A stretch of DNA of 64,000 bases, from NCBI RefSeq assembly GCF_023078375.1, contig NZ_CP095554.1, positions 1,426,001-1,490,000 on the forward strand. The letters are read 5' to 3'. Shown here in pieces: positions 4,641-62,945 of this stretch (position 1 is the first letter of the stretch; each line of letters opens with the position of its first letter). Made by a program: the position numbers and the translations under genes. The DNA is from Roseomonas gilardii subsp. gilardii. GTDB taxonomy: Bacteria; Pseudomonadota; Alphaproteobacteria; Acetobacterales; Acetobacteraceae. Below the pieces are notes generated by a model. That model saw nothing but the letters and a program-made list of their open reading frames with translations, searched no databases and had not been told where the DNA came from.

Positions 4641-4904
4641 TCAACAGCCTGTGATGCGGCCGGAGCCGATGCAGTCGCCGTAGTTCACGATCCGCATCAG
4701 GATGGGGAAGACCCACCAGGCGGCGAGGATGGTCGCGACCACCCCCAGCAGCACGCCCATGCCCAGATAGTCCGGCCCGTGCCGCCTTGGTGGGCCGGCG
4801 CCCCTGGCGGGCGGTGGCGTGGCCGAAGGGGGAGAGGCCGGAAGGGGAGAAGACGCAGGGGGAGCGGGCGAGGGGACCGCCGGGGTTCCAGGCGTCTCGC
4901 TCAT
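4641..4904 (-). CDS. Small proline-rich single-pass membrane protein, unknown function
   Basis: 87 residues. The first ~45 residues are Ser/Pro/Ala-rich and probably disordered (starts MSETPGTPAVPSPAPP). They are followed by a basic stretch (GPPRRHGPDY), one membrane helix (LGMGVLLGVVATILAAWWVF) and a short end with two cysteines (NYGDCIGSGRITGC). A GGGAG site lies about 5 bp before the ATG. It starts 36 bp downstream of the trxA stop on the same strand, so it is probably transcribed with trxA; a link to thioredoxin via the two cysteines is only a guess. I recognise no family. Confidence 0.65.
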   Translation of the reverse strand: MSETPGTPAVPSPAPPASSPLPASPPSATPPPARGAGPPRRHGPDYLGMGVLLGVVATILAAWWVFPILMRIVNYGDCIGSGRITGC

Positions 4905-4940
4905 GCCGCTCCCGTCCCGCCTGTCCTGTCCCGTCTGGGC

Positions 4941-5270
4941 TCAGGCCAGGTTGCTGTCCAGCCATTCGCGCAGCTTGCTGCGCGGCTGCGCCCCGACCAG
5001 CGTGCCCACCGGCTTGCCGTCGCGGAACAGGATCATGGTGGGGATGCCACGCACCGCGTAGTCGTTCGGGGAGCCCGGATTCTCGTCGATGTTCACCTTG
5101 GCCACGGTGAGCTTGTCGGCATAGTCCCGCGCCACCTCGTCGAGAATCGGGGCCACCTGCCGGCAGGGGCCACACCATTCGGCCCAGAAATCCACCAGCA
5201 CGGGGCCCGGCGCCTGCAGCACGTCGGCCTGGAAGGTCTCGTCGCTCACAGCCTTGGTCAGCTCGCTCAT
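4941..5270 (-). CDS. trxA: Thioredoxin
   Basis: 109 residues, normal for thioredoxin 1, which reduces cytoplasmic disulfides. The active site is WCGPC, preceded by VLVDFWAEW, with the cis-proline segment RGIPTMILFRDG and KPVGTLVGA behind it. The start shown is the ATG giving MSELTKAV. Two further ATGs lie 9 and 12 bp upstream (MMAAMSEL); the GGAG site is 12 bp from the ATG shown but only 3 bp from the middle one, so the start could be 5279. The in-frame extension further upstream is not thioredoxin. It is divergent from the ArsR-type regulator. Confidence 0.95.
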   Translation of the reverse strand: MSELTKAVSDETFQADVLQAPGPVLVDFWAEWCGPCRQVAPILDEVARDYADKLTVAKVNIDENPGSPNDYAVRGIPTMILFRDGKPVGTLVGAQPRSKLREWLDSNLA

Positions 5271-9612: not shown

Positions 9613-9933
9613 GCCAGGAGGAAAGACGCTGCCTTTCCCCCCGGACCCCCCTATCCGCCAGGAACCTGAGGTTCCTGGACCTCCCATTCGTTGGTGCTTC
9701 CCGCGGCCGGCAATCGCCGGAGAGCCATGCTCTCCGGCGATTGCCGGCGCCGCCAGCGCGGGGGAGGATTCTTTCTTTTCGGGGGCCAGCTGATCCACCT
9801 GCTCCCAGAGATCGGGCGTCAGGCTGACGCTCACCACCAGCGCCAACGAAAGCCTGGGGTCCGGGGACCGGCTTCGGTCCCCCATCCTGGTCATGGGCGG
9901 AGAGGGTATGGGAGGGGCGGCGCCTCTCCCACG
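9613..9933 (-). repeat. Convergent-junction multi-hairpin repeat, copy A
   Basis: This fills the whole gap between the convergent coxF-like and ompA-like genes, in reverse orientation to the other three copies. Recognisable parts, listed in element order: hairpin 1 (9910-9930, GGGAGGGG/CGCCTCTCCC); hairpin 2 (9863-9882, GGGGACCG with loop GCTT); a conserved ~123-bp spacer; hairpin 3 (9706-9748) with perfect 20-bp arms around CAT; hairpin 4 (9658-9678, CCAGGAACCT/AGGTTCCTGG); and a weak hairpin 5 (about 9617-9645). See copies B (27600), C (46450) and D (62600). I see no gene in it. Confidence 0.85.
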
Positions 9934-9942
9934 GGGCCGGTG

Positions 9943-27599: not shown

Positions 27600-27960
27600 G
27601 GCGGGACGCGTCTTGTGGCCGCCCGCCGGGGGCAAGGCGCTGCCTCGCCCCCGAGACCCCCACTCCGCCCATGACCATGGTGGGGGACCGAAGCCGGTCC
27701 CCGGACCCCGGGCTTTCGTGGGCTCCGGTGGCTGCCGTCGGTTTGCGGGCTGATCCCTGGGAGCAGGTGGATCGGCGGGGCTCCGAAAGCAAAAACAACA
27801 CCCTGTCCGCGCTGGTGGCGCTCGCAGTCGCCGGAGAGCGATGCTCTCCGGCGTGGTCCGGCCGTGGTGAGCGCCAAGGAGTGGAAGGTCCAGGAAACTC
27901 AGTTTCCTGGCGGATCAGGGGGTCTGGGGGAAAAGGCGGAGCCTTGTCCCCCCGGGACAG
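27600..27960 (+). repeat. Convergent-junction multi-hairpin repeat, copy B
   Basis: This fills the gap between the convergent S9 peptidase and bestrophin genes. Hairpin 1: 27628-27652 (GGGGGC..GCCCCC). Hairpin 2: 27683-27702 (GGGGACCG, loop AAGC, CGGTCCCC). A 126-bp spacer starts GGACCCCGGGCTTTCGTGGG. Hairpin 3: 27829-27853 (11-bp arms, loop GAT). Hairpin 4: 27890-27910 (CCAGGAAACT c AGTTTCCTGG). Hairpin 5: 27926-27952 (GGGGGAAAAGGC/GCCTTGTCCCCC, one mismatch). It can be read as an open frame, but indels in copy C break that frame, so I do not call it coding. Confidence 0.9.
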
Positions 27961-27976
27961 GGCGACGCCGGGGGTG

Positions 27977-46411: not shown

Positions 46412-46449
46412 AGGCGGGTGGCGGTTCGTTCTGGCCGTTGCACTTCGCG

Positions 46450-46775
46450 GGTGCCCCCGGGGGAGAGGCGCCGCCTCTCCCGCCGGACCCCCACTCCGCC
46501 GGGGACCGAAGCCGGTCCCCGGACCCCGGGCTTTCGTGGGTGCTGGTGGTCAGCCGTTGTTCCGTAGCCCGATCCCTGGGCGCAGGTGGAAAGGCAGGGC
46601 TCCCGAAAAGAAGAACGCCTTTTTCGCGCTGCTGGCATCGCAGTCGCCGGAGACCCATGCTCTCCGGCGCGATCCGGCCGCAGCAGGAACCCACGAACCG
46701 GGTCCAGGGCGCGCAGCGTCCTGGCGGATAGGGGGTTCGGGGGAAAAGCAGCGCCTTTCCCCTGAGGGGGCGGGC
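46450..46775 (+). repeat. Convergent-junction multi-hairpin repeat, copy C
   Basis: This fills the gap between the convergent MFS and small hydrophilic-protein genes. Hairpin 1: 46461-46481 (GGGAGAGGCG/CGCCTCTCCC). Hairpin 2: 46501-46520 (GGGGACCG, loop AAGC). The 124-bp spacer starts GGACCCCGGGCTTTCGTGGG. Hairpin 3: 46645-46669, one mismatch. Hairpin 4: about 46702-46725 (CCAGGGCGC/GCGTCCTGG). Hairpin 5: 46740-46761 (GGGGAAAAGC/GCCTTTCCCC, imperfect). No gene. Confidence 0.88.
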
Positions 46776-61297: not shown

Positions 61298-61313
61298 CCA
61301 GGGCGCGGGGATG

Positions 61314-61341
61314 GCCGGGAGGCGCGATGGCGCTTCCCGGC
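61314..61341 (+). terminator. Hairpin after the RNR gene
   Basis: 12-bp arms GCCGGGAGGCGC / GCGCTTCCCGGC with loop GATG and one G-T wobble, 17 bp after the stop. It has no strong U-tract. The remaining ~210 bp to the next gene holds nothing I can identify. Confidence 0.55.
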
Positions 61342-61554
61342 AGCCCCTCTCCCTCCGGCCCGCCCGGCGGTGCCGCTATGCCGTCCGGTGATAGGACCGC
61401 CGGGAAAACCGATACCACCAGCCTCCGTGGCCTCCTGTAGAAGTTTCCCAACAGCCCCGCCACGAGGCCCGGCCATGGGGGACGCGTGCTTCCCCGTGGC
61501 GGAACGGGCCGGTGGCGCCGCCGAAACGAAGCAGAGGTTCGGGGAGGACCGCGC

Positions 61555-62599: not shown

Positions 62600-62945
62600 T
62601 GTCCGGCGCCATGGGAGAGGCGCCGCCTCTCCCACACCCTCTTCGCCCATGACCAGGAATGGGGGACCGAAGCCGGTCCCCGGACCCCGGGCTTTCGTTG
62701 GCACTAATGGCGGCCGTTGGCCCGCGCCCGATCTGTGGAGCAGATGGATCGGCGGGGCTCCCGGAAAGTAGAAAAACGCCTTGTCCGCGCTGATGGCACC
62801 GGCAGCCCGCCGGAGAGCCATGCTCTCCGGCGCGATCCGGTGTCAGCGAGCGCCCACGAACCGGGTCCAGGGCGCGCAGCGTCCTGGCGGAAAAGGGGGC
62901 ACGGGGGAAAGGCGGAGCCTTGTCCCCCGGGACAGAGCGACGCCG
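62600..62945 (+). repeat. Convergent-junction multi-hairpin repeat, copy D
   Basis: This fills the gap between the convergent LigJ-like and MaoC genes. Hairpin 1: 62613-62633 (GGGAGAGGCG c CGCCTCTCCC). Hairpin 2: 62662-62681 (GGGGACCG, loop AAGC). The 126-bp spacer starts GGACCCCGGGCTTTCGTTGG. Hairpin 3: 62808-62832 (11-bp arms, loop CAT). Hairpin 4: about 62865-62888 (CCAGGGCGC/GCGTCCTGG). Hairpin 5: about 62903-62927 (GGGGGAAAGGC/GCCTTGTCCCCC). No gene. Confidence 0.9.

Follow-up and report, generated by a model that had tools for sequence, protein, structure and literature searches.

A structured intergenic element of ~350 bp, present in many dispersed copies in the genome of Roseomonas gilardii subsp. 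gilardii, is best read, with modest confidence, as a REP/BIME-like composite that has spread as non-autonomous DNA and been retained as a two-way, RNA-level barrier at the 3′ ends of genes. The window analyzed here, a stretch of 64,000 nucleotides, lies at positions 1,426,001-1,490,000 of contig C1 of a 4.62-Mb genome in two contigs (G000). It contains four copies, A to D, each present where an earlier note on this DNA had placed it (9613-9933, 27600-27960, 46450-46775 and 62600-62945), with outer arms that reach slightly past those limits. Copy B, the element under study, spans 27600-27975 on the plus strand when its outer arms are included. It comprises an outer left hairpin, H1 (27628-27652, RNAalifold); H2 (27683-27702, GGGGACCGAAGCCGGTCCCC), the most conserved part; a 126-bp, mostly fast-evolving spacer with an A-rich tract (27703-27828); a central hairpin, H3 (27829-27853); H4 (27890-27910, RNAalifold), which is framed by GGTCC and GGCGG and has a stem that varies in a paired way; and an outer right hairpin, H5 (27926-27952, RNAalifold). 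The same order, H1-H2-spacer-H3-H4-H5, was confirmed in copy C (46440-46775, plus strand; H1 46461-46481, H2 46501-46520, H3 46645-46669, H4 46704-46724, H5 46739-46762), in copy D (62600-62945, plus strand; H1 62613-62633, H2 62662-62681, H3 62808-62832, H4 62867-62887, H5 62902-62929) and, in the reverse orientation that had been noted for it, in copy A (9613-9940, minus strand; H5 9617-9642, H4 9658-9678, H3 9715-9739, H2 9863-9882, H1 9910-9930). The homologous spacer of 123-126 bp was likewise recovered, the distance from H2 to H3 being 123 bp in copy A, 126 bp in copy B, 124 bp in copy C, and 126 bp in copy D.

Overall, the element amounts to a long, imperfect inverted repeat, with the first ~100 positions of its model matching the reverse complement of the last 92. 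This symmetry makes it most natural to describe the element as a pair of inverted modules of two hairpins each (H1/H2 and H4/H5), arranged around a spacer with a fifth hairpin, the whole being bounded by outer inverted arms (CGGCGTTGCGC..GCGCAACGCC). Copies A and B, the two so analyzed, are much more stable as RNA than 100 shuffles each: the plus strand gave z-scores of -6.5 for copy B and -6.7 for copy A, and the minus strand of copy B gave -4.5.

Within the window, all four of the gaps holding a copy are convergent, and no copy lies upstream of a gene. The neighbors named in the earlier note were supported by Pfam at copy B (peptidase S9 and bestrophin) and at copy D (an amidohydrolase and MaoC), and in part at the other two. 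At copy A, OmpA on the right is a Pfam match, and the nearest small ORF on the left, where a coxF-like gene had been proposed, has none; the next gene out is UbiA (+). At copy C, the nearest small ORFs on both sides are without a Pfam match, and the MFS gene (+) that had been taken as the neighbor lies one gene further out, as does GlnD (-). Directions remain convergent when these next genes out are considered.

The description of a four-copy element did not hold beyond the window. Genome-wide, the H2 motif occurs 63 times (≤3 mismatches) and the H4 motif 89 times, with no occurrence of a reversed-pattern control for either, and a profile search over 887 kb of the genome found 90 copies, most of the stretches searched having been picked around copies and being therefore enriched for them. 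One stretch (L082, C1 3,080,001-3,100,000) includes 5,000 bases given as N, which lowers its apparent GC.

Relatives of the element are found in other genomes, with the narrower motif confined to fewer of them. The original H2 motif was found in four of 15 genomes of the genus, the window's own included, three of which carry 47-63 copies, and in three of 150 genomes of the family. An exact scan for H2 in a collection of species genomes, from which records close to the window's genome may be missing, returned 38 stretches, all of them from R. mucosa ATCC BAA-692. The more general H4 frame was present in 26 of 80 relatives, i.e., in 14/15 genomes of the genus, 12/33 from the rest of the family, and 0/32 from elsewhere in the class. 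Because reversed-pattern controls for this frame gave eight hits spread over seven of the 80, a count of one to three H4 hits in a genome is weak evidence; the single hits at L209, L210, L214, L218, L219, and L222, which fall within or close to coding DNA, look accidental. True relatives occur in two genomes from other genera, G041 (48) and G046 (54), where the stem sequences differ and are still self-complementary, and where 13 of 22 motif places are convergent, eight co-directional, and one divergent. In G003, several subfamilies with paired stem changes are seen, and the H2 sequence is different. Among plasmid and phage collections, which may likewise leave out records near the window's genome, none of 50,697 phage records matched, and one of 72,556 plasmid records did so: a copy of 67% identity at 4,736-5,043 of NZ_CP087720.1, a plasmid of Roseomonas sp. 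OT10. At L287 and L283 of G046, adjacent hairpin units seem to be doubled or inserted, in the fashion of a mosaic element.

Placement relative to genes is strongly non-random. Genes were called with our own codon-usage script rather than taken from annotation, and two of the 90 copies without a callable context were omitted. The remaining 88 copies comprised 45 in convergent, 40 in co-directional, and 3 in divergent gaps, with none inside genes; control gaps of at least 40 nt, drawn from 19 spaced 20-kb stretches plus the window, gave expectations of 17.6, 46.4, and 24.0, respectively. Convergent gaps are thus in excess (p 8e-11) and divergent gaps in deficit (p 4e-9). The earlier claims that the element occurs only between convergent genes and never upstream of a gene are therefore true of the window and not of the genome; copies are nevertheless not evenly spread over divergent, co-directional, and coding positions, since they avoid divergent gaps and the insides of genes. 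Of 41 copies in co-directional gaps (a set that includes one later re-called as convergent), 38 are closer to the upstream stop, at a median distance of 27 nt, than to the next start, at a median of 92 nt; the strand of the element is random (20/41), with no preference. Together, these observations indicate that the element follows stop codons closely, in either orientation, and is not tied to convergent gaps. Moreover, several copies lie between genes of the same pathway, including ccmE/ccmF, an addB-like nuclease and an addA-like helicase (names assigned here from domains), and a FecCD permease and its ATPase. The ccmE/ccmF copy is kept in all three species compared. Judging from gene names and spacing, such copies probably sit inside operons.

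Hairpins are also a feature of gene ends more generally. Per kb, perfect stems of at least 8 number 6.35 in the elements themselves, 1.38 in gaps between convergent genes, 0.66 between co-directional ones, 0.22 between divergent ones, and 0.18 within genes. When the first 120 nt of gaps were compared with 20 mononucleotide shuffles, ordinary convergent gaps were found to carry hairpins without T-runs (z below -2 in 14/31, TTTT in 3/31), the figure for divergent gaps being 5/55, and just one of six element-bearing convergent gaps had z below -2.

The element appears to have been inherited vertically, with gain and loss. Copies (187 queried) were compared at orthologous sites among G000, G006, G011, and G003, and of 87 directional, partly reciprocal and hence non-independent comparisons, 64 were scored as present, 23 as absent, and none as inverted. 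"Present" here includes fragments above 40 bits, two of the 23 "absent" gaps exceed 500 bp and may be rearranged, and the G006 stretches come from two sources that overlap. For example, copy C has no counterpart in G006 or G011, two related species in which the site carries a lone H1-like hairpin instead. A lone outer-type hairpin is also seen at the "empty" G006 orthologue of the site at C1 1,140,116; hairpins of this kind could represent either the remains of a complete element or its forerunner. Near 61,300-61,390 of the window, a copy is present in G006 and G011 and none in the window's genome. No clean target-site duplication was seen in the empty sites read, which are too diverged. In 19 full orthologous pairs, identity was 79% between orthologous copies, compared with 77% for random paralogs, 84% for the best paralog, and 93% for the flanks. 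Since the ortholog was the best match in only 13 of 38 tests, gene conversion between copies is likely to occur as well.

Within those 19 pairs, divergence is distributed in a way that follows the predicted structure. It amounts to 1.7% in H2, 3.4% in H3, 7.1% in the pairing P1, 9.0% in H1, 9.4% in H5, 13.2% in H4, and 15.8% in the pairing P2, as against 32% at unpaired positions; inner pairs that the fold predicts to be weaker, kept out of the stem figures, differ by 22%. By comparison, the first, second, and third codon positions of the window's genes are ~4, 3, and 14% different, so H2, which is nearly invariant with most of its loop included, is about as constrained as second codon positions. 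Stem differences between species and between genera come as paired changes, and 11 of 13 double changes in H4 in the same pairs are compensatory. P1 and P2 may reflect inverted duplication rather than RNA pairing. The balance of G-U to A-C changes is even in H2 (1:2), H3 (4:3), P1 (5:6), and P2 (27:27), and on the plus strand it is skewed, in few events, toward G-U in H4 (6:0) and H5 (10:0) and toward A-C in H1 (2:9), as if the hairpins of each end mattered in the transcript leaving by that end.

The anatomy of the element, its placement after stop codons, its random strand, and the constraint on its stems fit a two-way 3′-end barrier acting at the RNA level. The like placement in G041 and G046, the outward G-U leaning, the short tails beside the outer hairpins of those two genomes (given below), and the hairpins of ordinary convergent gaps are further points in its favor. 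In this scheme, a ~350-bp composite of two inverted modules would have spread as non-autonomous DNA, being tolerated or targeted just past stop codons, and would then have been passed on vertically with gain and loss. Transcription of either neighbor would run into the element, and its hairpins would fold toward the 3′ end of the mRNA, where they could act as a barrier in both orientations, guarding the upstream message from 3′-to-5′ decay. They would also lower, rather than abolish, read-through, such that the element would be both an mRNA stabilizer and a partial attenuator. REPs are also located inside operons, and those of E. coli are known for mRNA stabilization with partial attenuation; the copies between same-pathway genes argue for REP-like activity of this sort and against a strict terminator. 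Some observations weigh on the other side. The weaker inner pairs change by 22%, and one of six element-bearing convergent gaps reached z below -2 in the shuffling test. Template switching, or gene conversion between copies, could also be what maintains the match between hairpin arms and, with ortholog and paralog identities so close, the compensatory changes in H4 may be block replacements. The outward G-U leaning comes from few events, and H1 and H5 are inverted homologues. The many dispersed and naturally polymorphic copies in closely related species would allow effects on mRNA ends to be studied by comparing species.

Among described repeats, the element most resembles the REP, BIME, and REPIN sequences of E. 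coli, Pseudomonas, and Stenotrophomonas, for which GTAG and CGTC superfamilies are distinguished (PMC3733652). According to the same source, REPs are located downstream of genes with a preference for convergent and co-directional ORFs, GT pairing occurs in their stems, GTAG REPs have a RAYT, and CGTC repeats are apparently without a dedicated transposase. The likeness lies in high-copy, extragenic palindromic units that occur in inverted pairs downstream of genes; the difference lies in size and build, the present unit being fixed at five hairpins and ~350 bp. The superfamily tags are also absent from the stems: in the consensus, TCCGCC precedes H2 and GGGGTCC precedes H4, the flanks of H1, H3, and H5 are untagged, and GTAG and CGTC occur anywhere at only 0.25 and 1.5 per copy, away from the stems. 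Nor was a Y1_Tnp/RAYT transposase found in any of 15 genomes of the genus, the window's own included, in a search that was positive in 5 of 14 control genomes. As CGTC repeats apparently lack a transposase, failure to find RAYT is in itself compatible with a CGTC-like origin. On the best reading, the element is REP-like in its working and not a member of the REPs, for want of the tag; no Y1 partner was found either.

The earlier remark that no named family matches is borne out to the extent that no Rfam family reaches its gathering score anywhere in the window, and it needs qualifying in that the element is of the REP/BIME-like kind. A search of titles and abstract openings returned no report of the element or of any Roseomonas repeat family, which leaves its absence in print unproven. 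Software has counted 1,369 REPs in Lichenicola cladoniae, another member of the Acetobacteraceae, and the available text on those REPs does not describe the element (PMC12306157). PMC3733652 reports CGTC repeats as missing in the Acetobacteraceae; the present element would extend REP-like biology to this family in the form of a far larger fixed unit, for which the genus genomes yielded no Y1 transposase.

The CIR elements of Caulobacter, reportedly described by Chen and Shapiro in 2003, are over 100 bp in length with a central GANTC site, and they share with the present element the character of a long, intergenic inverted repeat of Alphaproteobacteria. A CcrM-linked, CIR-type element was rejected as an identification, GANTC occurring at only 0.18 per copy. 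CIR elements are cited in a review of MITEs (PMC10969869), whose account of bacterial MITEs as short and non-coding, with inverted ends and presence/absence differences, also suits the element in several respects.

On an unlikely, though conceivable, alternative, the element is simply a MITE: a non-autonomous transposon bounded by terminal inverted arms, selfish and of no use to its host, whose insertions persist only after stop codons, where they do little harm. Its outer inverted arms, its presence/absence differences between species, its subfamilies that differ by genome, and its strong avoidance of promoter-bearing divergent gaps are all expected of such an element. However, insertions without a function would be expected to lose stems and unpaired sites at the same pace, whereas here conservation of the main stems far exceeds that of the unpaired sites, and neither a target duplication nor an autonomous partner came to light. 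No transposase was recognized by eye among the proteins encoded in six short inter-copy intervals or by a Pfam check of eight proteins beside copies, and a search for an autonomous IS by the pattern of the outer arms was unspecific (17+30 hits vs. 4+3 in the control). Insertion tolerance alone would also leave the centering of copies on the origin, described below, unexplained.

Slightly less probable is a dedicated bidirectional intrinsic terminator, in which RNA polymerase arriving from either side would stop within the element or at its far end. The location between convergent stops, the two-fold symmetry, and the outward G-U leaning would suit this function. So would short, T-containing tails beyond the outer hairpins in two sister genera, where 18 of 22 rows (G041 9/10, G046 9/12) have CCTT after the right outer hairpin and where, in G046, 7 of 12 have AAGG before the left one, G046 being the one of the two whose left end was covered. 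The R. mucosa clade, by contrast, has no T-run after H5 and no A-run before H1, and hence no U-tract adjoining these hairpins. A weak terminator-like match, six pairs followed by TTTTTGCTTT, lies on the minus strand in the spacer of copy B (one found vs. 0.4 expected). Of 126 aligned copies, 102 retain the A-rich tract of the spacer, which reads as T-rich on the opposite strand; the alignment is a deduplicated set of full-length copies (reaching the ends of the HMM, >150 bits) from which fragments and G003 copies were omitted and columns with more than half gaps dropped. This tract leaves room for one-way termination, but it would serve a single direction, while the copies have no strand preference. 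The copies between ccmE and ccmF, in all three species, and between the addB- and addA-like genes also speak against termination as the purpose of the element, as do its five hairpins, which exceed a terminator's need. The earlier note had suggested a mobile bidirectional terminator, a supercoil or nucleoid-protein site, or the seed of an RNA; of the first of these, the mobile, two-way 3′-end element is supported by its presence/absence differences, lack of strand preference, and placement after stops, and the strict terminator is weakened.

A tight centering on the replication origin is an unusual pattern that calls for explanation, and it is not predicted by the 3′-end barrier favored here. 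In the whole-genome H2 search, used for this statistic in place of the copy-enriched 887 kb, the 63 sites have a circular mean at 778,187 (R 0.61, p ~7e-11), within 2 kb of the origin marker gidB (779,925-780,413); 56 of the 63 lie in the origin half and none on C2. The polarity of GGGNAGGG, which we take to be a guide to origin placement, flips in the 19 stretches between 0.25 and 0.9 Mb and again near 3 Mb. Sites for parS (≤1 mismatch) were absent from G000, and a single palindromic one was found in G011 at 4.16 Mb; as parS is uninformative in G000, gidB and GGGNAGGG polarity were used to place the origin. A second species, G011, shows a similar pattern: 27 of 29 exact H2 places and 32 of the 34 H2 places listed (of 47) are in the origin half. 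On the origin side of that genome, 480 kb contained 30 copies and 18 of 56 convergent gaps were filled, whereas a systematic 800-kb sample of the terminus half yielded five copies (>50 bits) and 3 filled gaps among 102 convergent ones (Fisher p 5e-7); 400 kb of the origin side had been picked for dense H2 hits, such that this value and the tenfold ratio of densities are upper estimates. Loss of gene content near the terminus, though still conceivable as the cause, is not supported. Four of nine terminus control stretches of G000 have matches of 5-16 kb, at 89-93%, in the G011 terminus DNA compared (800 kb, ~40% of that half), the other five having none above 1.5 kb, and with four stretches syntenic, a lack of shared gene content is no obvious cause. 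Because G003 holds six copies in 40 kb at ~1.8-2 Mb from gidB, in stretches that were not randomly chosen, the centering may be specific to the R. mucosa clade.

It is tempting, but doubtful, to see the copies as structured 3′-end elements that mark the origin-proximal half and provide sites for supercoil relief or domain organization between convergent genes, kept by selection rather than by insertion history. The least probable reading is a DNA-level site of chromosome organization in an origin-proximal domain (for a topoisomerase, a nucleoid protein, or condensin loading), with convergent 3′ ends as a convenient location: the origin centering in both genomes, the sparse terminus half, the absence of H2 from C2, and the near invariance of H2 and most of its loop would all agree with it, and the lack of replichore bias in element orientation (p 0.67), the different H2 sequence of G003, and the absence of an evident restriction to the origin in that more distant genome all count against it. 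As a separate observation, a distance of ~1.4 Mb separates dnaA from gidB and from the inferred origin in each of the two genomes, dnaA lying at C1 3,613,220 as against 779,925 in G000 and at C1 2,660,622 as against 4,119,024 in G011.
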